NCBI RefSeq assembly: GCF_000230675.1
Contig: NZ_AGIK01000005.1
Coordinates: forward strand, 1-64,000
Direction of reading: 5' to 3'
From: Synechococcus sp. WH 8016
Lineage (GTDB): Bacteria > Cyanobacteriota > Cyanobacteriia > PCC-6307 > Cyanobiaceae
DNA length: 64,000 nt
This document shows, one piece after another, positions 53,025-64,000 of this stretch; the stretch's first letter is position 1, and each line of letters begins with the position of its first letter. The translations under genes and the position numbers were made by a program. The notes under the pieces were generated by a model that had not been told where the DNA came from, searched no databases, and saw nothing but the letters and a program-made list of their open reading frames with translations.

Positions 53025-53328
53025 TATCAATCGCAAACCGCAGCGACTTTTAGGAATGGAACGTTCAGCTCACAAGGACCAGAGGATCACATAGATCCTT
53101 GAAGCCTTCCCGATGATTAAAACGGAGAGGGTGGGAATACATATAGGTCTCAAAAAGACTTTATTACTTGCTTTAGGAGGAAACACAAGAGAAAGCAAGT
53201 ATTTCCAACAACACATCCAACAACACATTCACGGGACCACCTGAAACCTTCCTGAACCCATTTCCGGAAAACGATTTCACGAAGAGATTCCCTCTATACG
53301 ACTTCGATTCATGTGCCCGCCCAAGCGC

Positions 53329-53358
53329 AAAAAAAAGGAAGGTCTCCCCAGACCTCCC
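53329..53358 (-). terminator. Rho-independent terminator
   Basis: The minus-strand stem GGGAGGTCT / AGACCTTCC with a 4-base loop is followed by eight T. There is no intact gene directly upstream on that strand, consistent with decay of the gene it once served. Confidence 0.7.
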
Positions 53359-53460
53359 TCATGACGACGCATCCCCGCTTTCCAGGGACGAATGAATTGT
53401 TATGTATCGAGCGGAACCTATTTGTAGGGACAGGCACTAAACCACTGGCAAATACTGAGA
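53329..53460 (-). repeat. Gene-less copy of the DUF1651 3' region with terminator
   Basis: On the minus strand this roughly 130-bp stretch resembles the 3' untranslated region of the DUF1651 gene (53765-53875): both contain ATACATAA, ATTC(A/G)TTC-like sequence, then a GGGAGGT hairpin ending in T8 or T6. Here no coding frame precedes it. It is probably the remnant of a second DUF1651 copy. Confidence 0.5.
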
Positions 53461-53465
53461 CAAAG

Positions 53466-53498
53466 AAAAACCCCTGAGGTGCTCACTCCCCAGAGGTC
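53466..53498 (-). terminator. Probable Rho-independent terminator
   Basis: Minus-strand arms CCTCTGGGG and CCTCAGGGG pair over 9 bp with two G-U pairs, and TTTTT follows. It lies about 110 bp beyond the short minus-strand frame at 53606-53725. Confidence 0.55.
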
Positions 53499-53605
53499 TT
53501 TCCCGTCCGTTCATGACTTATTCACTCTCCTACTGACTCCTAGATACGGATATCAGGAGAACCGCCTGCCCTAGTAGTAAATACCCATCAACTCGCCCTT
53601 CTCTT

Positions 53606-53725
53606 TTAAGACGATGGAATCAAGTTGAACTTGACCTCATAGCGGTAGAAGTCGATGCCCTGTGCGATCTGAAGTGCTCTCCTGATTCGCTTGTCATCGT
53701 CCAAAGCGATGATCACGCCGCGCAC
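53606..53725 (-). CDS. Possible 39-residue protein or fragment
   Basis: From GTG 53725 the frame reads MRGVIIALDDDKRIRRAL, then a coding-like remainder ending YEVKFNLIPSS. It may be a complete small gene or the end of a longer one, since the frame upstream is closed after 4 codons by TGA. Two tandem terminator-like hairpins follow downstream on this strand. Confidence 0.35.
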   Translation of the reverse strand: MRGVIIALDDDKRIRRALQIAQGIDFYRYEVKFNLIPSS

Positions 53726-53764
53726 GACTTCAGTTCATGCGGGTTCAAAAGGTTCCTTCAGAAC

Positions 53765-53797
53765 ATAAAAAAGGAGGGTCTCTCACCTCCCTCCTTC
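53765..53797 (-). terminator. Rho-independent terminator of the DUF1651 gene
   Basis: The minus-strand stem AAGGAGGGAGGT / ACCCTCCTT with a short loop is followed by TTTTTT, 80 bp after the DUF1651 stop codon. Confidence 0.75.
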
Positions 53798-53874
53798 GTG
53801 CCGTGCAATCCCGTGTGAGGAATGAAAAGAGTTTTATGTATCCGCGTGAACTCTTCTGTAGGAACAAACACCTT

Positions 53875-54123
53875 TCAGGGTTCTGCGTCAACACCCCAAA
53901 CAGCAGGAACGTTTTCCCAACCCTTCCGCACTAAGTCCTTCCACATACCTTCTGCTCTTTCCCTCCTGAGGTGCTTACGAGTCTTCAAGAGAGCAGGAGA
54001 ACCATCAGGCATTGCACGACCCTTATCCACGAAGACACGGGGGTCGACGGACCAACTCTTCTCATCCCTCTGAAACCGATAGGTCCATCCGTCTTCGGGG
54101 TTCCGCAACCAACCGTCTCCCAT
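53875..54123 (-). CDS. DUF1651 family protein
   Basis: The 82-residue protein has the hallmark pattern of DUF1651: a GWLRNPEDGW start, DPRVFVDKGRAMPDGSPALLKTRKHLRR in pieces, and a Trp-rich end. To my knowledge the family is characteristic of marine Synechococcus and Prochlorococcus and often multicopy; its function is unknown. It is divergent from the serine recombinase across a 170-bp region rich in TTCGGAAA repeats, so the two may share regulatory DNA. Confidence 0.7.
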   Translation of the reverse strand: MGDGWLRNPEDGWTYRFQRDEKSWSVDPRVFVDKGRAMPDGSPALLKTRKHLRRERAEGMWKDLVRKGWENVPAVWGVDAEP

Positions 54124-54239
54124 AAAAACTACTCACCAATACATCTGTATTAGTCATAGCAGTGGATTGGTGTTCGGAAACTCTTGAGTTGCTCATTCAA
54201 AAACGAACAGATGACTTGACTGGGTTCTCAGGGGCGAAA

Positions 54240-54298
54240 ATCGTTCGGAAAGGCGTTCGGTTGGTAGAATCTAGAAACACTTACCCTTTCCGAACGAT
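54240..54298. promoter_or_regulatory. 13-bp perfect inverted repeat at the recombinase start
   Basis: The arms ATCGTTCGGAAAG (54240-54252) and CTTTCCGAACGAT (54286-54298) are perfect complements separated by 33 bp; the second reaches into the ATG of the recombinase. Further TTCGGAAA-like copies lie at 54173-54180 and 54256. Together these fit a res/crossover-type site or autoregulatory operator for the recombinase. Confidence 0.6.
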
Positions 54299-54872
54299 GG
54301 GACGGAAAATCGGATACGCAAGGTGCTCCACCACCCATCAATCCACCGACTCGCAGGTGGATGACCTCAAGGCAGATGGATGCGAAGAGGTCTTCTTTGA
54401 AAAGGTCTCAAGCACCACGACCCTGGAGCAACGACATCAACTGCGTGCCTGCCTATCTGTTCTCCGTGAAGGAGACCTGCTGTGTGTTGCCAAGTTGGAC
54501 CGCCTTGGAAGGAGTCAGGTCGAAGTCATCAACCGTCTGAACGATCTCCAGCAAGAGGGAATCCATGTGAGAACCCTGGATGGATTGATAGACACCAAGG
54601 CACTTGGGAAGATGGCACCTCTTGTCGTTGGACTCCTAACTGGACTTTCAGAAGTGGAAAGATCTCTTATCCAGGAGAGGAGCAGAGAGTCCGTAGAGCA
54701 CCGCAGGAAGACAGGAGGGAATCTTGGAGGGAGACCAAAGACCTCCAACAAGAAGGAGTCATTGGTCTTGCGTCTGCGTCAAGAAGGAGAGTCCTATAGG
54801 TCCATAAAGGATCAAACAGGTCTGGCACTCGCAACCATCACACGCATCATCAAAGAAGAAGAGGTGATGTGA
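54297..54872 (+). CDS. Small serine recombinase (resolvase/invertase family)
   Basis: From ATG 54297 (MGRKIGYARCST) the product is 191 residues. The catalytic Ser lies in YARCST (near 10), with Arg in LEQRHQLRACL, the AKLDRLGRS motif near 70 and ERSLIQERS in the E-helix; a C-terminal helix-turn-helix (SYRSIKDQTGLALATITRII) binds DNA. The open frame begins at 54162 but the upstream part covers the repeat region. It heads a chain of five genes whose starts overlap or touch the previous stops. Confidence 0.9.
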   Translation: MGRKIGYARCSTTHQSTDSQVDDLKADGCEEVFFEKVSSTTTLEQRHQLRACLSVLREGDLLCVAKLDRLGRSQVEVINRLNDLQQEGIHVRTLDGLIDTKALGKMAPLVVGLLTGLSEVERSLIQERSRESVEHRRKTGGNLGGRPKTSNKKESLVLRLRQEGESYRSIKDQTGLALATITRIIKEEEVM

Positions 54873-55054
54873 TGGTGAAGATCCTTATTGGGGTTGGTCT
54901 TGGGTTTCTGCTGTTCACTAACCCAGAAGCAAGGCAGATAACAGGAGACCTACTCCGCTCTGCTGGCGATGCCATTGCTCCCGCAAAAGAAGGAAAGACG
55001 ATCCAAAACAGAATGCAAGATGCAGTATTGGAAAAGGTCCAAGAAAAAATATGA
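54872..55054 (+). CDS. Small membrane-anchored protein, second gene of the recombinase operon
   Basis: The 60-residue product begins with a hydrophobic helix (ILIGVGLGFLLFTN) and continues as a charged helical tail. I have no name for it. ATG 54872 overlaps the recombinase stop by one base and follows a GAGG ribosome-binding site. Its stop overlaps the next ATG. Confidence 0.6.
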   Translation: MVKILIGVGLGFLLFTNPEARQITGDLLRSAGDAIAPAKEGKTIQNRMQDAVLEKVQEKI

Positions 55055-55365
55055 AGGCACTGCTACTCATGCTGCTTTTACCTGTGATGCCAGCGAAGGC
55101 AGAGCAACCAGACATCAAGTGCCCAGGGAACAACACCGTTGAGATGAGATGGTGCGCCTCCAAGAGTTTGGATGAGTCCAAGGCAGCACTTGAGAAGAAA
55201 CTCTCACCAGAGACCCTGAAGCAATGGAGAGAGGCAACCATGGAGGTCTGCTCTGCTGCCTATCGACCTTATTTACAAGGAACGATTTACCCACAACTGG
55301 TTGTTGGGTGTGATGACCGACTCAATCGCGTTCTGCTGAAAGAACTGAAAGGTCTAGCAGAATGA
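55051..55365 (+). CDS. Exported LprI/DUF1311-like protein
   Basis: The 104-residue product has a signal peptide cleaved after AKA-E and a mature part with four cysteines (KCPG, RWCAS, VCSAA, GCDDR). The arrangement CPGNNTVEMRWC resembles the lysozyme-inhibitor LprI N-terminal (DUF1311) fold. Target unknown. Starts and ends are ATGA overlaps with both neighbours. Confidence 0.65.
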   Translation: MKALLLMLLLPVMPAKAEQPDIKCPGNNTVEMRWCASKSLDESKAALEKKLSPETLKQWREATMEVCSAAYRPYLQGTIYPQLVVGCDDRLNRVLLKELKGLAE

Positions 55366-55865
55366 AAGCACTGCTGTTCCTGCTCACAGGGGTAATGAAT
55401 CCATTGATTGTTCCGCAGGACAACATCCTTCCTGTTTTTGGTTGTGGAACTTCCTGTCGGGTGGAAACAGAGCAGTTGTCCTTACCAGAGGTGATGAACG
55501 ACGGGTGGTTGAGAGTCAAGGTCAGGCAGCGAACCTGGATTCATACCTGCGATTGGGATACCAAGGAATGTAGACATGAACCAGCATCTGGCAGAGCAGG
55601 TCCTCCTGTAATCGACATCTGGTTGTTTGCTGACTGCGTTGGCGAGAGGTTCTCAACCAGCAAGAACGCTGACCGCACTGATTCCTGGGAACAGGATGTT
55701 TTCTACAGAGAGGGCGATGTCGCAGGACAACCCAAGTACCAGACCGTTCATGGGAATCCATTTATGCGATGGGCGAAGTTATGTCCTGCTGAAGGAGAGG
55801 ACGGGATGCGTTCTATCCAGGGGTCCTTTGACCGCTTCCGTAAAGCATTGGAGGAGATCAGATGA
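55362..55865 (+). CDS. Exported hypothetical protein with paired cysteines
   Basis: The 167-residue product starts MKALLFLLTGVMN, a weak signal sequence. The mature part has Cys pairs (GCGTSC, TCDWDTKEC) and several Trp. No domain recognised. It is the fourth gene of the operon; overlaps of 4 bp on both sides support a single transcript. Confidence 0.55.
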   Translation: MKALLFLLTGVMNPLIVPQDNILPVFGCGTSCRVETEQLSLPEVMNDGWLRVKVRQRTWIHTCDWDTKECRHEPASGRAGPPVIDIWLFADCVGERFSTSKNADRTDSWEQDVFYREGDVAGQPKYQTVHGNPFMRWAKLCPAEGEDGMRSIQGSFDRFRKALEEIR

Positions 55866-56086
55866 GGTTCCTACTCCCACTACTCCTTTCACTTGCACTA
55901 CCAGTGATGGCAGCACCCAAATACAAAATCCAAGTCAGAAACCAGTTCGGTGGATGGCAGCAGTATCAAACCGTTCATCACCTTCCCTCTGCCGCAAGGA
56001 CAGCACAAACAAGAGCAACTCAATCAGGCAAGCAATACAGGATTGTTGATGAGGATAGAAAACTTATGGATCTCTTCTATCCATAA
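55862..56086 (+). CDS. Small exported basic protein
   Basis: The 74-residue product has a clear signal peptide (FLLPLLLSLALPVMA-A) and a mature part of about 55 residues (VRNQFGGWQQYQTVHHLP). The C-terminal part resembles small surface or SPOR-like modules only vaguely. It is the last gene of the coupled operon and is followed by AT-rich sequence without an evident terminator. Confidence 0.55.
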   Translation: MRFLLPLLLSLALPVMAAPKYKIQVRNQFGGWQQYQTVHHLPSAARTAQTRATQSGKQYRIVDEDRKLMDLFYP

Positions 56087-56232
56087 AATTAATTCCGCAC
56101 TGTTATTCCTTTATTATGTTGTGTTGTTAACGTGCAGTTGAATGCAATATTGGAATATCGAGGGACTGCCTCTAAGCACTCCTAGACAATTTAACTCTAA
56201 CAAGATAGAATGAATATATTGTGGAAATTGTC

Positions 56233-56979
56233 ATGACTACTCCAAGGCATAAGAAGTTTGGATATGAATTGACTGACAAAGATAAATTTAGATACTTCTC
56301 TAAGATATTCGCGCTTTATGAGAGTGATATCAAAAGATACTGGGACAAAACACAGTCAGAAGACTGGGACGATGTCGAGGTATTACCTGAATCGTTCAGA
56401 CTTGACTATCTTGATAATCAGTTCGATCAAGATTATGAGGAGAACCGTAATGACGAAGATGAAGACGAAGATGTGCCATTTGAAATTGAACTGCACGGGA
56501 AAGACTTACTTAGTGATAATTACAAACGCATCCTTGATAGAGCGATCGAGGTCAGGAAGAAGGAACATCCTGATGAGGATGAAGAGACACTATTTGCCAA
56601 TACTATTGAGGAACTTGCAGAAGAGTATGGTCCTCCATGGTTGAAACTACACCCACCTGCCAACCAATTACCTGGCAAAAAGTACAAGACAATCACCGAC
56701 GCTCAACTAGCAGGATGGGAATGGGACGAAGACCATATGATTAATATCGAGATGCCTAAGAAATATCTCCTTGCCTGGTTTGACAATGTGGAGTTCGATG
56801 AAGATGAGGAAGATGACTTTTCCTTCGGTTTTGAGAAGTACGATAAAGATACACTTTTAATCACTGAATTCAATCCTGATTTCTGGACTAAATGCAGTCA
56901 GGAAGACTTTGAGCAAGCAGTCTTAGATAAACTTCATCTCAAGAAAGAGTGGATTGAAAGCATGACCGTTGACGGTTAA
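56233..56979 (+). CDS. Acidic hypothetical protein
   Basis: The roughly 248-residue soluble protein has two acidic runs (NDEDEDEDVPFE, DEDEEDDF) and no catalytic motif that I recognise. GTG 56221 is also in frame; ATG 56233 (MTTPRHKKFGYE) is preferred. The AT-rich codon use contrasts with the core and matches the neighbouring genes. Confidence 0.6.
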   Translation: MTTPRHKKFGYELTDKDKFRYFSKIFALYESDIKRYWDKTQSEDWDDVEVLPESFRLDYLDNQFDQDYEENRNDEDEDEDVPFEIELHGKDLLSDNYKRILDRAIEVRKKEHPDEDEETLFANTIEELAEEYGPPWLKLHPPANQLPGKKYKTITDAQLAGWEWDEDHMINIEMPKKYLLAWFDNVEFDEDEEDDFSFGFEKYDKDTLLITEFNPDFWTKCSQEDFEQAVLDKLHLKKEWIESMTVDG

Positions 56980-57087
56980 TAACTTATCACAATCCTTCCC
57001 TTTCTACGCGTTAAATTCTGCAAGTATAGTTGAAGCGTGTAATCATCTGAGTTATACTCGTGTCAATACGAGCATTAAGCATTAGCG

Positions 57088-57456
57088 ATGATTGGTTTAA
57101 TAATTATGGCGATAGGTTTTGTCAAAGCAGCATCCGATTATGGGATCCTACAAGGATTCGCATTTGCGGGACTCTGGTTTGTATTCGGATTATTTCTACT
57201 AGGTATACCGACTATTGTCGCAATGATGAGAACACTGGGGACATTTGAAGCAAAAGAATTTATTCAAGGGATACTTGCTCAATGCCTTCTAATTGCAATT
57301 CTTTACGGTATTCTTAACTTATTTGGCATGGAGGAGATGTTTAGTTGGTTTGTATTTGGGGGAATAATTATGGGTTTGACTGCTCCACAACAGGCACTCA
57401 ACCGAGACAGAGAGGATCGTATCAAGTTAAACCAAGAGCAGGATACTGAAAAATGA
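57088..57456 (+). CDS. Hypothetical integral membrane protein
   Basis: The 122-residue product has three hydrophobic helices (IMAIGFVKAA, LWFVFGLFLLGI, LLIAILYGIL) and a charged C-terminal tail. It is coupled by a 4-bp overlap to the next gene, so it belongs to the 57.1-58.1 kb membrane cluster. Function unknown. Confidence 0.55.
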   Translation: MIGLIIMAIGFVKAASDYGILQGFAFAGLWFVFGLFLLGIPTIVAMMRTLGTFEAKEFIQGILAQCLLIAILYGILNLFGMEEMFSWFVFGGIIMGLTAPQQALNRDREDRIKLNQEQDTEK

Positions 57457-57806
57457 AATTCGTAAATATTCTAATTTCAGCGACTGTAATGATTTCAGGT
57501 TTTGGGATAGCAAGATATTTCAGATACACCAAAACACTTTCTAGACCAGTAGAGATGGAATCAATCCCTGCTGGGTACTCATATGAAGGACGCTTTGGAC
57601 AGGGAAAAGATATTTACTCAAAGGAGGAGGATCGGACTGGCAGCATCGTTGAGATTTCTGGATATCGCATCAACAGACATGGAAAGGTGCGTAAGGATAT
57701 TCCCTATGCCTTGGACTGTGAACGCTCTTTAAGGAAATGGCAAGGCGAATGGGGACCCATTGAGGTTGACTCCCTAGCAGAAGCATTTGAGAAAAGGTAT
57801 TGTTGA
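57453..57806 (+). CDS. Hypothetical exported or anchored protein
   Basis: The 117-residue product starts with an N-terminal hydrophobic segment (NILISATVMISGFGI) then a soluble domain with many Arg/Tyr and a single late Cys. No family recognised. The start overlaps the upstream stop. Confidence 0.5.
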   Translation: MKFVNILISATVMISGFGIARYFRYTKTLSRPVEMESIPAGYSYEGRFGQGKDIYSKEEDRTGSIVEISGYRINRHGKVRKDIPYALDCERSLRKWQGEWGPIEVDSLAEAFEKRYC

Positions 57807-57825
57807 GATAAGACTGAGTTAAAAC

Positions 57826-58077
57826 ATGATCCCATTTCAAGGATTGATCGCCTCTATACTTGGAGTGATAGGTCTCATTGTCAATTGGAACAAAGAGTTA
57901 TACTTTTTCTTTTGGTTGCTTGTATTTCTTCTTCTGATGGACATGGTTCTAACAGATGCGCTACGCAATGTATTGAAAATAAAAGGTGATTGCAATACTG
58001 CTCGAATTACCGTCCTCATTGCCACAATCAATCAAATAACTATAATAATTTTTGGGATAGGGTCTTTTAGCACTTAA
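57826..58077 (+). CDS. Hypothetical small integral membrane protein
   Basis: The 83-residue product is almost entirely hydrophobic with three helices (LIASILGVIGLIV, YFFFWLLVFLLLMDMVL, VLIATINQITIIIFGI). It lies 19 bp after the previous gene. The opposite-strand frame is shadow. Function unknown. Confidence 0.5.
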   Translation: MIPFQGLIASILGVIGLIVNWNKELYFFFWLLVFLLLMDMVLTDALRNVLKIKGDCNTARITVLIATINQITIIIFGIGSFST

Positions 58078-58304
58078 CCTGTAGGAGATCCAAATAGATT
58101 CAAGGCAACGAGTATTTTAATTTCATACAAGCAAGCAATATCTGCATGACTCGTCTAAGCATCTATGCCACCCTTAAGTCGTACTCTTTTGATTGGTTTG
58201 TTTTGAGATGCATAGTTAGTAAATCACAATACTTATATCGTTCCGAGATAGAACTCGTAAGAGACTTACACTGATCTAAAGCATTGCCCGTTGCTGAGAT
58301 ACCA

Positions 58305-59333
58305 ATGGACTACAAACGCTTGGCAATTTCACTCGGTGCTGGCGTTGCAGGTGCTGTGGTCGTATCTGCAATAGGTGCTCAAAAGTCTTATGTACTTGCT
58401 GCTGCCTTAGTGATGGGTGCAGGAGGCACTTTGATACGGAGGCAATCATCACAAAAAAGAAATATGCAGATATCGACTAGCGATGATGCTAAAAATTACT
58501 TCGAAGAGGGTAAAGCAAATTCACTACTTGAGAAACACGAGCAGGCAATAGAATGTTTTTCCAAGGCGATATTAATTAATGCAAAAGATCCAACTTTCTT
58601 TTCGTCCCGTGCATCATCAAAAACAAAACTTAGACAATATGAAGAGGCATTAAAGGACTATGACTATGCCATCGAATTAAAACCTGACTGTCCCGAACAA
58701 TTCATTTGCCGTGGACGCATCAAAGAAATCTTATGCGATACATATGATGCGATTGAAGACTATTCTATTGCAATTAAGTTGGACTTTTCTTGTATGCAAG
58801 CATATGCCATGAGGGGTAAGGCGTATAAAGAATGCTTTGAGTTTGATGACGCAGAATCGGACTTAAATAAGGCAATTGAACTTGGCAGCAATGATATAGC
58901 AATTAGAAAAATGAGGGGTTATTTAAGAGAGAGAAAAGGAAATCTGAAAGGTGCTATCGAAGATTACACAATCACAGCAAATGCTAAAGAGACTTTTGAT
59001 AACTACCAATCCTTGGGAGATGCTCAATTTGCCCTTGGAGATTATGCTTCAGCAATCAAGTATTTTGAAAAAGCAATTCTGTTAGATGCAGATAATATAA
59101 GCGCCCACTTTTCTCTTGGGAACACCTATATGCGCCTGAAAAACTATTCAGATGCGTTGGTATGCTACACAAATGCATTGGAAAATTCACCTTCATTTGC
59201 AAGTGGATTCCTCAATCGTGGGATCGCCAATTACGCATTAAACCAATTGGTGGATGCTTGCTCAGACTGGATGAAAGCAAAAGAATTAGGAAGTGAAGAC
59301 GCTCAGGATCTTCTGGATAAACATTGCAATTAA
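58305..59333 (+). CDS. TPR-repeat protein with N-terminal membrane segment
   Basis: The product has an N-terminal hydrophobic helix (GAGVAGAVVVSAIG) and then about seven tetratricopeptide repeats of 34 residues with the usual Y/A/Y pattern (for example YEEALKDYDYAIELKPD). It is a likely protein-protein scaffold. The start ATG 58305 follows a 205-bp gap without other features. Its AT-rich codon use marks it as part of the island. Confidence 0.75.
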   Translation: MDYKRLAISLGAGVAGAVVVSAIGAQKSYVLAAALVMGAGGTLIRRQSSQKRNMQISTSDDAKNYFEEGKANSLLEKHEQAIECFSKAILINAKDPTFFSSRASSKTKLRQYEEALKDYDYAIELKPDCPEQFICRGRIKEILCDTYDAIEDYSIAIKLDFSCMQAYAMRGKAYKECFEFDDAESDLNKAIELGSNDIAIRKMRGYLRERKGNLKGAIEDYTITANAKETFDNYQSLGDAQFALGDYASAIKYFEKAILLDADNISAHFSLGNTYMRLKNYSDALVCYTNALENSPSFASGFLNRGIANYALNQLVDACSDWMKAKELGSEDAQDLLDKHCN

Positions 59334-59406
59334 CCCTTTAATGCCTATAACAAAATAACAAAATAACGGATTAACACACTGAAACTGAAAATTGTAAATT
59401 TCAGTT

Positions 59407-59574
59407 CTACGACCAGTGCTCATCCCACTCTTGTTGCAACTCAGCAGGGGTAAGTGAGTTGTAGAACCCGCGCCACTTCTTCTCTGAATTGGCATCAGAC
59501 GCAACTAGAGACACGAAGAGGTCAATTGCCTGTTGCTCGCTGAAAACACGCCCTGACGGAGATTTGAGTTCCAT
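59407..59574 (-). CDS. Small hypothetical protein, 55 residues
   Basis: The minus strand encodes MELKSPSGRVFSEQQ through WDEHWS stop. It is below the usual length cutoffs but has an intact frame, protein-like composition and a Trp/Glu-rich end. No similarity recognised. Confidence 0.45.
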   Translation of the reverse strand: MELKSPSGRVFSEQQAIDLFVSLVASDANSEKKWRGFYNSLTPAELQQEWDEHWS

Positions 59575-59619
59575 ATGCGGTCATCTTCGCCATCTAGGTC
59601 TTGGAGTAATCAAAATCGT

Positions 59620-59710
59620 CATACACCTCTGCGCGTCTCAGACACCCTTTAAGCGTCTTCTTTTGCGTATGTGAAAGATGAAAGCATATTCAATGCCTTC
59701 GCACCCCCCA
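59620..59710 (-). pseudogene. Degenerate partial copy of the 59801-60127 gene
   Basis: The minus-strand sequence matches the 3' end of the neighbouring phage-like gene (CTTTTGCG...AAGCATATTCAATG against CTTTTGCT...GGAGCATATTCAATC, with AGACGC and AAGCGTC shared) but contains stops. It looks like a diverged partial duplication. Confidence 0.5.
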
Positions 59711-59800
59711 AGGTGATGATTCATCTCTTCTATCCCTGGTCAGCAAACCTTGATAGATAGTTCTTCATTACCAACTACTCATAAAAAGTTTTAGGTGTGA

Positions 59801-60127
59801 TCAGTCAAGATCTGCATAGTTCCCATGAGCGTCCCAGACGCCCTTGAAGCGTCCTCTTTTGCTTGGGTTATAGCGAGGAGCATATTCAATCCTTCTACCG
59901 CCTGAGGGCGCTGTAGTGCTCTTTCCGTAGAACCTTCTGCTGGTCATAAATGAGACATCATCAAACCTCAATCCACGCTGCTTCCTGATGCTGGATGCTT
60001 TGCTCTTTGCTTGATCAAAACCTCTTGCTGTTCCAAGGACTGCTCTTGTCTTCTTGTTGTAAATAACGAACTCAGCATTCGGGTTGTAGTCCTCACACAG
60101 GTTCAAGAACTCTCTAAATGTAATCAT
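59801..60127 (-). CDS. Phage-like small hypothetical protein
   Basis: The 108-residue basic protein starts MITFREFLNLCEDY, a pattern reminiscent of short virion-associated proteins of T4-like cyanophages, and ends RGRFKGVWDAHGNYADLD. No domain is recognised. Its start overlaps the stop of the preceding 49-residue gene (ATGA). It is the second gene of the downstream copy of a repeated gene pair. Confidence 0.5.
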   Translation of the reverse strand: MITFREFLNLCEDYNPNAEFVIYNKKTRAVLGTARGFDQAKSKASSIRKQRGLRFDDVSFMTSRRFYGKSTTAPSGGRRIEYAPRYNPSKRGRFKGVWDAHGNYADLD

Positions 60128-60273
60128 GTCATTAACCTCTTATTTTGTTTCAGCAGTTTGAGGTCTGCTGCTGTCCTTGCTTCCAGATACTGCTCGTAAT
60201 CAAGAAAATCAGTCCTTGAAATGATCTGTTTAAGATTATTTTCTATATTTTTACTTGTAATCTTGACATTCAT
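60124..60273 (-). CDS. Small hypothetical protein, 49 residues
   Basis: From ATG 60273 the frame codes MNVKITSKNIENN, with a LKQIISRTDFLDYEQYLEA stretch that aligns with the LKQNIFEQDYLKYEQRLND part of the gene at 60565-60795. It overlaps the previous gene's end and its TGA overlaps the next ATG. It is the first gene of a gene pair repeated upstream. Confidence 0.5.
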   Translation of the reverse strand: MNVKITSKNIENNLKQIISRTDFLDYEQYLEARTAADLKLLKQNKRLMT

Positions 60274-60568
60274 ACCTATCTCTTCGCTTTACTGCGTCTA
60301 AAACTTTTCTTGCTGCTCTTTTGTTTCTGCTTTCAAAGACCCTGACACCTTGCTGAGGATCAACTGGATTGGGGTAATACTTTGATTTCCCTCTTTGCCT
60401 TGGATCTATTGCTCTTGGATTAATATTTTCCCAATCCTGAAGACCAGGGTCATCCTCTAGATCCTTTAGGTAGGAACCGTCTTTCATCTTGTCTCTTAGA
60501 CGCTTGATGATTTCACGATCTTCCAGATATGCCTTGTAGAGCAGTTCAACATAATCACGAAAAGTCAT
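60251..60568 (-). CDS. Phage-like small hypothetical protein, paralogous pair member
   Basis: The 105-residue product begins MTFRDYVELLYKAY and has a basic C-terminal portion (ESRNKRAARKVLDAVKRRDRYE). The opening resembles that of the gene at 59801. Its start overlaps the stop of the 76-residue gene by 4 bp (60565-60568). Confidence 0.5.
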   Translation of the reverse strand: MTFRDYVELLYKAYLEDREIIKRLRDKMKDGSYLKDLEDDPGLQDWENINPRAIDPRQRGKSKYYPNPVDPQQGVRVFESRNKRAARKVLDAVKRRDRYECQDYK

Positions 60569-60795
60569 TTGCTATTCCTTCCTATATTCAATACATCATT
60601 CAACCTTTGCTCATACTTTAAGTAGTCTTGCTCAAATATATTCTGTTTCAAGTGTTTGATTTCATCACTAATCCAGGCATAAGCAAGTTTGAGATCAGGA
60701 TCAATACGAAAACCTGAAGCATCTTCTATCTCCTGCCTTTTAGCAATTAGATAATTGATCTTTTGTTCATGTTGCTCTCGCATTGACTTATCCAT
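60565..60795 (-). CDS. Small helical hypothetical protein
   Basis: The 76-residue product is charged and helical (QEIEDASGF, ISDEIKHLKQNIFEQDYLKYEQ). It resembles the 49-residue protein at 60124. Coupled with the following gene. No function known. Confidence 0.5.
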   Translation of the reverse strand: MDKSMREQHEQKINYLIAKRQEIEDASGFRIDPDLKLAYAWISDEIKHLKQNIFEQDYLKYEQRLNDVLNIGRNSK

Positions 60796-60801
60796 CTTGT
60801 C

Positions 60802-61020
60802 TTAGAAACCAACTTGTGGCATTTTCAACATGGTGTAAGCATTACGAATAAGGTGCTTATGAAGATCACTTCTATTCATGCTGTAGTGATCCATCAACTC
60901 CTCCTCATATACCAAGAGATTTCTCTCTTTTTCTTTATAAGAAATATGGGTCTTAGAGGGGAGTAAGGACAACCTTGAATTAACTCTTTTATGTGGGTAT
61001 GTAAATGTGCTTCTGTTCAT
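60802..61020 (-). CDS. Small basic hypothetical protein
   Basis: From ATG 61020 (MNRSTFTYPHKRV) about 72 residues. The C-terminal part (LMDHYSMNRSDLHKHLIRNAY) resembles a short DNA-binding-like helix region seen in some phage proteins, but this is a loose resemblance. It is first in a minus-strand series downstream of two TATAAATA octamers. Confidence 0.45.
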   Translation of the reverse strand: MNRSTFTYPHKRVNSRLSLLPSKTHISYKEKERNLLVYEEELMDHYSMNRSDLHKHLIRNAYTMLKMPQVGF

Positions 61021-61073
61021 TTGATATCCAATTGATTTCAATATCTGGTCTGCTAAGGCAGCATTCCTAAAAC

Positions 61074-61081
61074 TATTTATA
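61074..61081 (-). promoter_or_regulatory. TATAAATA octamer (T4 late-promoter-like)
   Basis: The exact octamer occurs on the minus strand 54 bp before ATG 61020. It is the late-promoter consensus of T4-like phages, including cyanophages. Chance occurrence in AT-rich sequence is possible. Confidence 0.35.
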
Positions 61082-61174
61082 TCGCATTAAAAAGACAATG
61101 CGGAAACTCAAACGCCCCAAAAACACCCAAAGGACTCTTAAAGAACTAAAGGAATGTCTGAAAAACGCCAAGGT

Positions 61175-61182
61175 TATTTATA
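61175..61182 (-). promoter_or_regulatory. Second TATAAATA octamer on the minus strand
   Basis: An exact second copy about 100 bp upstream of the first, oriented toward the same minus-strand genes. Two exact copies in 110 bp strengthen the phage-promoter reading. Confidence 0.35.
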
Positions 61183-61311
61183 CACTTTAGATCCAATAAA
61201 TACATATAGTTAGCAAATTGACACAAATCTGTTAATGCGCAAGTGATGGGCATTTAGTTGACAATACTCAAAAATAATAGTAAAATACAATCAAGAAAAA
61301 GAATAACAGCG

Positions 61312-61968
61312 ATGGATCTTACTGATAAAGAAAGGCAGGCAATCACAGGAAAGCACAATCTCGCAGACCAAGAGAAGAGAGTAAAGATCAAACAATTAGA
61401 TCTTGAGGTATGGACAGCGTTTGCGCCAAAAAAAGCAGAGCACAACAACTCATCAATTGAATACCGTTGCTTCTGTCCTTACTGTGCGGAAGATTCAAAG
61501 AAGAAGCATAAGAAGGAAAGAGGTGGAGGTCATGACCTAACTGCGTGGGTCTTCCAGCACGCCAATGGAGATGGTCTGAGTTTCAAGTGCTTCGCCTGTG
61601 GGACAAAGCACGACAGAGTCTTTGAATTCTTAGGTGGTGCTGGTTCTACAGCAGCAGAGAACTACGCCTGGAAACGCTTTGCGATAGGTGCTGTAGGGCA
61701 TGGTTGGTATTGCCCTTACCCACAACGATGGAAGCAAGAACAAGAGCAAGCAAAGCGAGATAGAGCAACGCACCACAAGGCAAAAGACGAACGCCTCAAG
61801 AAGGAGCACCAGATCGCCTACGCACTGCGTGAACAGGAAGCACTCAAGGCAGCAGAACCCAGAACACCTTCACGCCCAAAGGGGTCATGTGGCGTCTCCA
61901 AGGAAGAAGCAGAAAGAGAGCGAGAACGCTTTGCCTCGAGACCCGTCAGGAGAAGTCAGGGATCGTGA
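61312..61968 (+). CDS. CHC2/primase-like zinc-finger protein
   Basis: From ATG 61312 (MDLTDKERQAIT) the product is 218 residues. The pattern CFCPYC ... FKCFACGTKHDRVFEFLG resembles the zinc-binding domain at the N terminus of DnaG-type primases, but no TOPRIM or polymerase domain follows; instead there is a Gln/Glu/Lys-rich helical tail. It may be a stand-alone DNA-binding finger of a mobile element. The frame starts at 61258, but the first residues look untranslated. Confidence 0.6.
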   Translation: MDLTDKERQAITGKHNLADQEKRVKIKQLDLEVWTAFAPKKAEHNNSSIEYRCFCPYCAEDSKKKHKKERGGGHDLTAWVFQHANGDGLSFKCFACGTKHDRVFEFLGGAGSTAAENYAWKRFAIGAVGHGWYCPYPQRWKQEQEQAKRDRATHHKAKDERLKKEHQIAYALREQEALKAAEPRTPSRPKGSCGVSKEEAERERERFASRPVRRSQGS

Positions 61969-62102
61969 AGTCCCCGCCTTCCTTCAACTCGCCACGGAGA
62001 CCGATGTAATCACAAAAACTTATACAGAGAGAAAGTTGATGGGTTTTCCAAAGAGAGAGACTACAGGAACTAACTTCGATTTCAGAGCGCACTCATTTCC
62101 TC

Positions 62103-62138
62103 AAAAAAAATCCCCCAGGATGTTTGAGATCCCAAGGG
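62103..62138 (-). terminator. Rho-independent terminator
   Basis: The minus-strand arms CCCTTGGGAT and ATCCTGGGGG pair over 10 positions with three wobbles, and TTTTTTTT follows. It ends the transcript of the gene at 62150-62488. Confidence 0.65.
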
Positions 62139-62149
62139 TTGAGCATCAA

Positions 62150-62488
62150 TCAATCTTGTGTGTCGTCGAATAGTTCCTCCAGTCTTCGATACATGCGGAT
62201 TCCATCTTCTACCTCCCAGTGCTTGTTAAAAGATGGACCACCGGGATACTCAAAGTGTGATTGCTCTTCATCGCAATAGTTTTCCCAAACTCCAGTCAAA
62301 ACTTGATTGACTTCACCACCACCTCGTTCTAGAAGGTCGCGGAACTCTCTGGATTGCTCCGTCATTCCAATGAGTTCGTCATGCGTAGCGTATAGAACAA
62401 CTGGTTCAGGATTCTCACCACCATTTGGGTAGGTCCAGTCCTCATGGAAGAACGAAATCTTCCATGGTTTTTCATCGGCAAGTGTCAT
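62150..62488 (-). CDS. Hypothetical acidic protein
   Basis: The 112-residue product starts MTLADEKPWKISFF and has several Trp and Glu/Asp; no domain recognised. A strong ribosome-binding site GGAGGG lies about 8 nt before ATG 62488. A Rho-independent terminator follows at 62103-62138. Confidence 0.6.
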   Translation of the reverse strand: MTLADEKPWKISFFHEDWTYPNGGENPEPVVLYATHDELIGMTEQSREFRDLLERGGGEVNQVLTGVWENYCDEEQSHFEYPGGPSFNKHWEVEDGIRMYRRLEELFDDTQD

Positions 62489-62512
62489 AAGTGTTTCCCT
62501 CCATTAGTAAGT

Positions 62513-62541
62513 GAATAAAGGGGAGTAGTTTCCTGCTCCCC
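62513..62541 (-). terminator. Rho-independent terminator
   Basis: The minus-strand stem GGGGAG / CTCCCC with a 10-base loop is followed by TTTATT, 14 bp after the stop of the gene at 62555-62899. Confidence 0.55.
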
Positions 62542-62554
62542 AGTCAGGTCAGAT

Positions 62555-62899
62555 TTACTCGCAACAACGGGAAACGAGTGTCAGCATCCATTCATCAAAA
62601 TGATTAGACATCTCATCCATTCGCAGTTGCTCTTCATCAGTCCGAGCAATAGTGCTGGTTCCCAATCCTTGCTCTACTTCATCTTTTAGAGCAAAAGCAC
62701 GAATAGCATCCCAGTAATAAAGCAAGACGTTTATGAGTTTGCGACAACCACTACCTTCATAAAAGTCATCATCATCTATCAAAGAATATAGATGTCCCTC
62801 GAACACCCTGACAGAACATCTGTCTTTAATTGCGTCTCGCCTGAGAGACGACCACATCTTCGAGATGTGTCTAACATCTGATGCTTTTGTAATAGACAT
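62555..62899 (-). CDS. Hypothetical acidic helical protein
   Basis: The 114-residue product begins MSITKASDVRHIS and has a helix-rich body with a terminal SRCCE. It is preceded by GGAGG 9 nt before the ATG. No family recognised. It lies upstream of the similarly spaced gene at 62150 with its own terminator, so the two are separate transcripts. Confidence 0.6.
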   Translation of the reverse strand: MSITKASDVRHISKMWSSLRRDAIKDRCSVRVFEGHLYSLIDDDDFYEGSGCRKLINVLLYYWDAIRAFALKDEVEQGLGTSTIARTDEEQLRMDEMSNHFDEWMLTLVSRCCE

Positions 62900-63059
62900 A
62901 AGAGATTTCCTCCATAGTTTTGTTTGTAAAAGTGAGAGTTATTACCTTTCTGTCTCCCGTATATCTCTCAGAACCGGGGTTTTACGAGGGTCAGAGGTCC
63001 TCGAAGAACTTATGTAATGAGAACCTTGGTGCGTCCTCCAAAAGGAGAGACCGCACAAA

Positions 63060-63254
63060 CTAATTCTGGTTTCCAACCACATAGTTCTGATAGTTCCTTC
63101 CAGGGGTCCAACAGAAAACAAATGATCTCTTCTGTCCCCCATAGGAAACAACACAGACGGGGTGTCCCGTCTTCTTACGCATATGGAAGGTTCCTTCATC
63201 AGCAAGGTCCCGCAGGAAGTCCTGAATCCTGCGATTGACCTGTGCTGAGTTCAT
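63060..63254 (-). CDS. Small basic protein, possibly truncated by an in-frame stop
   Basis: The 64-residue frame starts MNSAQVNRRIQDFLRD and contains KKTGHPVCVVSYGG and FVFCWTPG, a fold vaguely like HicA/YcfA dsRNA-binding toxins. The TAG stop at 63057-63059 is followed in the same frame by a coding-like stretch (VRSLLLEDAPRFSLHKFFEDL) ending at TGA. It starts 10 bp after the zinc-ribbon gene ends. Confidence 0.45.
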   Translation of the reverse strand: MNSAQVNRRIQDFLRDLADEGTFHMRKKTGHPVCVVSYGGQKRSFVFCWTPGRNYQNYVVGNQN

Positions 63255-63264
63255 GGGTCAGAAG

Positions 63265-63690
63265 TCAAGCGAATCCCTTTCCAGAAGGAACATAAGGATT
63301 TGCTTCTGGAAAGGTCGCAAAATCCACCAATGTCATATTGGGAGGAAGGAGTTTTGCTCTCGCAGGATTCACACGAGTCGCATCACATTCACTACAGCAA
63401 CGATGCGGGAGATTCTGTTCTTGCGCTTCCTTCGCATAGGTATGAGGAGCAAGAGGAGCAGGATTATGAGTGTCGTGAAGGGAAACCATTTCCTTACCGC
63501 ATAAGCAGCAGTTCATGGGTTGGTAATCCTTCTCATGAATCATGGTCGAACCAGGTTCATAGGAATTCTTGTTCCAGAGGTTCTTATAGAAGTTGTTGTA
63601 TTTGATTTGAGATTCGACATTTCCTTTAGTTCCTTCACGGAACCACTTCATAACCTGCTTTTGAGAAGGTTGCTGATGTTGTATAGACAT
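63265..63690 (-). CDS. Zinc-ribbon/HNH-like hypothetical protein
   Basis: From ATG 63690 (MSIQHQQPSQKQ) the protein has CCLCGKEM and CCSECDATRVNPARAKLL, paired CxxC motifs around HDTHNPAPL. I recall this arrangement from small cyanophage and picocyanobacterial proteins. No catalytic His-Asn is assigned with confidence. It lies between the partial gene at the right edge and the small basic protein. Confidence 0.6.
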   Translation of the reverse strand: MSIQHQQPSQKQVMKWFREGTKGNVESQIKYNNFYKNLWNKNSYEPGSTMIHEKDYQPMNCCLCGKEMVSLHDTHNPAPLAPHTYAKEAQEQNLPHRCCSECDATRVNPARAKLLPPNMTLVDFATFPEANPYVPSGKGFA

Positions 63691-63822
63691 TAGATTCACT
63701 CTAATAATGTGATTTACATGGGGTCTCTGCCTCCACTCCTAAGTGAAAGCAAAGCAGAGAGATTTGTTGTGAGGACTCAGGTGTTCAGGATTTTAGACTT
63801 ATTACTGCCTGATTACTTCTGA

Positions 63823-64000
63823 CTAAGTAGTGGTCAAAGATTCACCCTCAGAAAGGTCAGTTTTAACCACCTTTATAGTTCTATCTTGTTGATTAGCAAG
63901 GAGAGCAATCTGACCACAGAATGAATCCAGATCAGTGTCCTCTAATGAAGAGTCAGCAAGGACCTCAAAGAAGAGTTGCCAGGTCTTCTGCTTCTGTTCC
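63823..64000 (-). CDS. Partial hypothetical protein running off the right edge
   Basis: The minus-strand frame ends with TAG at 63823-63825 and is open to the window end. The visible C-terminal part of about 58 codons reads as an acidic helical sequence (KQKTWQLFFEVLADSS). It continues beyond base 64000, so no identity can be given. Confidence 0.55.
   Translation of the reverse strand, partial: EQKQKTWQLFFEVLADSSLEDTDLDSFCGQIALLANQQDRTIKVVKTDLSEGESLTTT

Follow-up and report, generated by a model that had tools for sequence, protein, structure and literature searches.

The closest known counterparts of the locus analysed here are the Tn3/gamma-delta resolvases with their res sites, together with the Gin and Hin recombinases. 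Tn3-type resolvases repress their own genes. At the level of whole elements, the points of comparison are the P4-like integrase/AlpA tRNA islands, the PICI/PICMI elements and the tycheposons, the last of which are defined by a distinct deep-branching tyrosine recombinase. Tycheposons are described, in the account of Hackl 2023 cited in PMC10187409, as tRNA-gene elements that drive island turnover in Prochlorococcus. PICMI elements carry int, alpA and a variable slot for defence genes (PMC10803314). In picocyanobacteria, island genes have been suggested to set resistance to phages and grazers (PMC2441476).

We analysed a window of 64,000 nucleotides, positions 1-64000 of contig C5 in a 2.69-Mb picocyanobacterial genome of the marine Synechococcus type. 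As judged from sequence comparison, a locus in this window appears to resemble a Tn3-type resolvase with its res site, placed at the head of a cargo operon in a tRNA island of the P4/AlpA type. Its recombinase shares with the resolvases and with Gin and Hin the catalytic family, the length and a putative C-terminal helix-turn-helix region, and, as in Tn3/gamma-delta, clustered half-sites lie directly upstream and overlap the putative promoter. Unlike the textbook res site, however, the array is laid out as site A, a tandem B1-B2 and an inverted C, and the recombinase gene stands first in an envelope-protein operon that is part of a tRNA-integrated element. No Tn3 transposase (TnpA) was found among the element proteins scanned with Pfam, and on this ground we rejected the identity of the element as a Tn3 transposon.

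The element shares with the P4/AlpA islands and PICI/PICMI an Arm-DNA-bind_3 integrase, an adjacent AlpA, att sites at a tRNA 3' end and a cargo slot, which carries restriction-like genes in a relative. In contrast to PICI/PICMI, its one primase-like match is short and confined to a zinc finger. No DUF3987/DUF5906 primase, capsid or terminase match was found among the element proteins scanned, and the missing primase match places the element outside the definition of PICMI. Like the tycheposons, it is a picocyanobacterial element at a tRNA gene, but its integrase matches the P4-like arm-binding type.

In marine cyanobacteria, the locus links a resolvase-like recombinase and its well-defined site array to small exported proteins that are conserved as a set within tRNA-Ser elements. 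It offers a regulatory hypothesis for the timing of island cargo expression, and it names four uncharacterised protein families as candidates for further study.

The operon and its integrative element

All five open reading frames of the operon were found at 54297-56086 on one strand with overlaps of 1-4 bp, exactly as the first-pass annotation had laid them out (Table 1). The recombinase and TM genes overlap by 4 bp if TM starts at GTG and by 1 bp if it starts at the next ATG; each of the later junctions is a 4-bp overlap. The Resolvase catalytic domain (PF00239) was matched in the recombinase at 107.2 bits (cut-off 23.3) and the C-terminal HTH_7 domain weakly, at 18.5 bits (cut-off 23.8). 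In sequence, the recombinase is equally close to Gin-type invertases and resolvases. For the recombinase, the integrase and the TM, LprI-like and Cys-rich proteins, IMG/VR scans turned up no viral relatives.

Table 1. Features of the operon and the element that surrounds it. Positions are those of the window unless prefixed with the contig (C5).
Feature	Position	Strand	Remarks
Window part of the integrative element	53121..64000	.	GC drop, att sites, Pfam AlpA and Phage_integrase
attL core, copy of the tRNA-Ser(CGA) 3' end; left end of the ~13.3-kb element	53121..53137	.	Identical to 66432-66448 over 16-17 bp; tRNA call
Integrase arm-type direct repeats TCCAACAACAC, two copies at attL	53204..53226	+	
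DUF1651 protein, divergent from the recombinase	53875..54123	-	PF07864, 94 bits; adjoins the recombinase in several element copies
Res-like array: A (54171), B1 (54242), B2 (54254), C (inverted, 54285-54298)	54171..54298	+	
Putative extended -10 TGGTAGAAT	about 54262		Between B2 and C
Small serine recombinase of the family that includes the Tn3/gamma-delta resolvases and Gin-type invertases	54297..54872	+	191 aa; PF00239, 107 bits; PDB matches Gin, Tn3, gamma-delta
TM protein: small, single N-terminal hydrophobic helix; conserved partner directly 3' of the recombinase	54869..55054	+	61 aa
LprI/DUF1311-like exported protein, four invariant Cys	55051..55365	+	104 aa
Cys-rich, probably exported protein, without family match	55362..55865	+	167 aa
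Small basic exported protein, last operon gene	55862..56086	+	74 aa; ~55-aa domain
AlpA	C5:64494-64709		Beyond the window end; Pfam
Tyrosine integrase with Arm-DNA-bind_3 domain	C5:64977-66248		Beyond the window end; Pfam Phage_integrase
attR / tRNA-Ser(CGA), right element end	C5:66433-66521		Beyond the window

The operon sits at the attL end of an element whose boundaries extend past the window. GC content falls from about 60% to 38-51% past 52 kb. An integrase is present, as is a duplicated tRNA 3' end at both boundaries, and the integrase and AlpA genes are adjacent to each other at the tRNA end of the element. The arm-type repeat found twice at attL occurs four times at attR. Five relatives (L115, L117, L122, L123 and L134) have an empty or near-empty site, where a few hundred bp separate the flanking DUF gene from the tRNA end. 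Given the att sites, the integrase, AlpA, the GC shift and these empty sites, we conclude that the operon belongs to the cargo of an integrative element at tRNA-Ser. The suggestion that the genes are mobile is therefore right at the level of the element, since the operon lies inside it.

Comparison with other genomes shows an element inserted by the tyrosine integrase with AlpA into the 3' end of tRNA-Ser(CGA), at an insertion hot spot of picocyanobacteria. Related integrases adjoin comEC in seven genomes (G012, G101, G123, G202, G083, G028 and G031). Cargo at the same site differs by genome, with type I restriction-like genes in G083 and a ~1000-aa protein in G101 and G012 (names given by inspection). 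The operon is a cargo module not described before, in an element of a familiar kind, and very probably not a gene-flipping switch.

Recombinase copies occur in various islands, beside type I restriction-like genes, the ~1000-aa protein or Rep-like genes, and in G123 the recombinase is 98% identical and the next gene ~68%. Such mosaicism would fit a recombinase and operon that form a cassette of their own, nested in the tRNA element and moved between islands by the serine recombinase. However, we found neither flanking direct repeats nor empty cassette sites, and homologous recombination between elements also predicts mosaicism; we regard a separate cassette as unlikely.

Several other genes of these elements were recorded. 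The DUF1651 gene adjoins the recombinase in G101, G123 and G056; in G012 it adjoins a different serine recombinase. That recombinase (L088, G012:C1:761735-762913) lies in an element at the same tRNA site, has 34% identity to the others, and has as neighbours DUF1651 and what is left of the last operon gene, now broken. A TPR-repeat protein at 58302-59333 has relatives of varying length in the elements of G028, G123, G044, G005 and G202. Inside the element, 61258-61968 matches the zinc-finger region of primase PHROG 47 (E 7e-7) and has no Pfam match.

A res-like array upstream of the recombinase

Three of the 11 genome copies of the half-site GTTCGGAAA fall inside a 124-bp stretch upstream of the recombinase, and one variant completes the array. 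In this exact 9-mer search, the only strong cluster of recombinase-type sites found in the genome was the one directly upstream of the recombinase. Sites B1 and C form a perfect 14-bp inverted repeat (54240-54253/54285-54298), and site C overlaps the recombinase start codon. In homologues, the A-B1 spacing is 61-62, 71-73 or 82 bp, so that the values differ by whole helical turns. A phase test at 10.5 bp gave R=0.94, with p about 0.001 when each distinct length is counted once; the homologues in it are not independent. The half-sites shift in concert between clades, from GTTCGGA to GTTCCAA to GTTTCAA, and the shift is most complete at A, B1 and C of L025.

A plain sigma-70 scan upstream of the recombinase found no promoter. 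Promoters were called by inspection and a simple extended -10 score, and by these means 14 of 15 loci were assigned a putative extended -10 between B2 and C, located at -34 to -42. The mean score was 6.2 out of 8, compared with 4.67 (sd 0.28) for shuffled sequences, and none of 500 shuffles reached it. Collectively, the conservation, concerted changes and phasing of the array support, but do not prove, binding and autorepression by the recombinase. Because the homologues share ancestry in their upstream DNA, the array could in part reflect conservation alone.

We favor, with moderate confidence, the reading that this is a cargo operon of the element, headed by a self-repressing resolvase-type recombinase with a res-like array. 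The recombinase most likely binds the A, B1, B2 and C sites upstream of and overlapping its own start, as conservation, concerted changes and helical phasing suggest. By analogy with the way Tn3-type resolvases repress theirs, binding would repress the whole operon, because the putative extended -10 lies between B2 and C. The catalytic role would most likely be resolution, at the array, of element copies joined in tandem or as dimers; we chose this role because a single site cluster speaks against inversion. Site A of the window copy has a weak right half, which makes an active crossover site uncertain. The palindrome score of site A looks significant in some homologues and does not in the window copy. 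With the least confidence, we propose that the downstream genes would yield, by coupled translation of one transcript, a helix anchored in the membrane together with two or three proteins of the periplasm. These may be envelope cargo of host-benefit or anti-phage function.

The recombinase might instead act today as a DNA-binding autoregulator of the operon that has lost its role in recombination. The overlap of the array with the start codon and putative promoter is consistent with such a role, as is the erosion of one half of site A in the window copy. Yet the catalytic domain is matched in full by both Pfam and PDB comparison, and its dN/dS of 0.04-0.08 shows strong purifying selection. A purely regulatory protein thus seems improbable to us.

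Products of the downstream genes

Signal-peptide and transmembrane calls were made by inspection. The LprI-like protein and the last protein each have a clear N-terminal hydrophobic, signal-like segment with an A-x-A-type site at its end, and the TM protein, with its single helix, looks membrane-anchored. The signal-like segment of the Cys-rich protein is weaker. Pfam and NCBIfam gave no family match for the TM, Cys-rich and last proteins and no function for the cargo, and PADLOC gave no convincing defence match for it. The predicted model of the Cys-rich protein was poor (pLDDT 65), and a fold search with it returned nothing usable.

The LprI-like protein matches PF07007 (LprI) below the Pfam cut-off (17.7 bits versus 22). 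Residues C24, C35, C67 and C87 are invariant in 11 homologues, and we take these four cysteines to correspond to those of LprI proteins. Like the LprI/DUF1311 proteins M. tuberculosis LprI and Salmonella ScwA, it is a small protein of periplasmic type with four conserved cysteines; unlike them, it falls below the Pfam cut-off and has no MliC match. The idea that the operon counters lysozyme or grazers is weak. It came from the LprI name, lysozyme inhibition has not been shown for the LprI domain, and the Salmonella LprI-domain protein that was tested did not affect lysozyme resistance (PMC7933661).

The predicted fold of the last protein (pLDDT 86) ranked T4 Dmd, RB69 Dmd and AcrIF9 highest, with Z scores of 5.2-6.8, a range that common arrangements also reach. 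Alignment of the model with Dmd gave a Z of 6.8 over 55 residues on a 57-residue chain, with an rmsd of 2.4 and a Foldseek E of 0.75. The likeness would lie in the predicted bb-a-bb fold, which spans nearly the whole domain, and in the occurrence of relatives in T4-like viral contigs. In contrast to Dmd, with which it shares ~6% sequence identity, the window protein appears to be exported. We treat this modeled likeness as a lead.

The domain is also found without a signal peptide, both directly after other recombinases and in 17 IMG/VR contigs. At least one of these contigs is T4-like, with a gp6 that is 71% identical to that of a Synechococcus phage. The family was absent from the isolated-phage collection searched. 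In some of the uncultivated viral contigs that carry the domain (L166-L182), it lies beside gp25/gp6-like baseplate genes.

In a bolder version of the proposal, the recombinase on its own res-like promoter array would set expression of the envelope operon, and the copy number or excision of the element would switch on exported proteins, one of them a Dmd/AcrIF9-like phage-type domain re-targeted to the periplasm as an anti-phage factor. We give this version only a slim chance.

Conservation of the gene order

A search for the same gene order, as the first-pass annotation had suggested, recovered it in other genomes. Genome G083 has the identical five-gene order with similar overlaps (7, 4, 4 and 4 bp). 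The Synechococcus single-cell genome AG-670-B23 has the five-gene order in a collinear 1.8 kb at 72.5% DNA identity; three of its operon genes look frameshifted. Four genes, recombinase-TM-LprI-Cys, lie near an integrase and tRNA-Ser(CGA) in L165, a contig whose recorded host is unlikely. The operon genes have dN/dS values of 0.04-0.19 wherever computable, that is, in comparisons with unsaturated synonymous sites, which excludes recombinase and TM versus G083. The recurrence of the order in G083, AG-670-B23 and L165, together with the low dN/dS, indicates a unit conserved by selection. The five genes are a real, conserved and probably co-transcribed unit.

Among 200 genomes of the order, homologues of the recombinase occur in 115 and of the LprI-like protein in 52. 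The family of the last gene is found in 33, TM in 18 and the Cys-rich protein in 12. Hence the recombinase stands mostly without the other genes (115 of 200 versus 12 of 200 for the Cys-rich protein), largely the situation that the first-pass annotation had said would count against it, but adjacency of recombinase and TM is recurrent. TM lies within 100 bp of a recombinase at 10 of its 23 places, with the recombinase upstream each time, and at nearly all places the adjacent partners are on the same strand and downstream of the recombinase. The description of a recombinase-led operon therefore holds as a recurrent arrangement.

That each gene is found apart from the others in most genomes would also suit a chance neighborhood of island genes without a joint function. 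Order and overlaps are nevertheless kept in distinct genomes, at ~70% DNA identity and with low dN/dS, and a chance neighborhood is quite improbable. Phase variation of the envelope proteins, with the recombinase acting as an invertase on a promoter or gene segment, is very improbable despite a sequence as near Gin-type invertases as resolvases. The site cluster is single genome-wide (exact 9-mer). Within 53.1-58.2 kb there is one perfect inverted-repeat pair and no other strong pair was found; its half-sites are just 31 bp apart around the putative promoter by the recombinase start. We rejected a switch for want of a second site or a segment-flanking inverted pair in these searches.

Other relatives of the recombinase lie in different surroundings. 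In genus g2, a single recombinase homologue, at ~40% identity, is present in many small genomes (1.5-1.8 Mb). In L008, L009, L011 and L012, a protein of ~220 aa (184 aa in L009) comes after the recombinase; an H-x-H stretch in its family suggests a possible likeness to HUH Rep proteins. Finally, L066 (G083:C2:980089-980535, minus strand) is an open 148-aa reading frame in which a tyrosine integrase, represented by its arm-binding N terminus, is fused in frame to the C-terminal helix-turn-helix of the serine recombinase. A second TM gene comes next, and the fusion was probably left by a deletion between two genes of the element.
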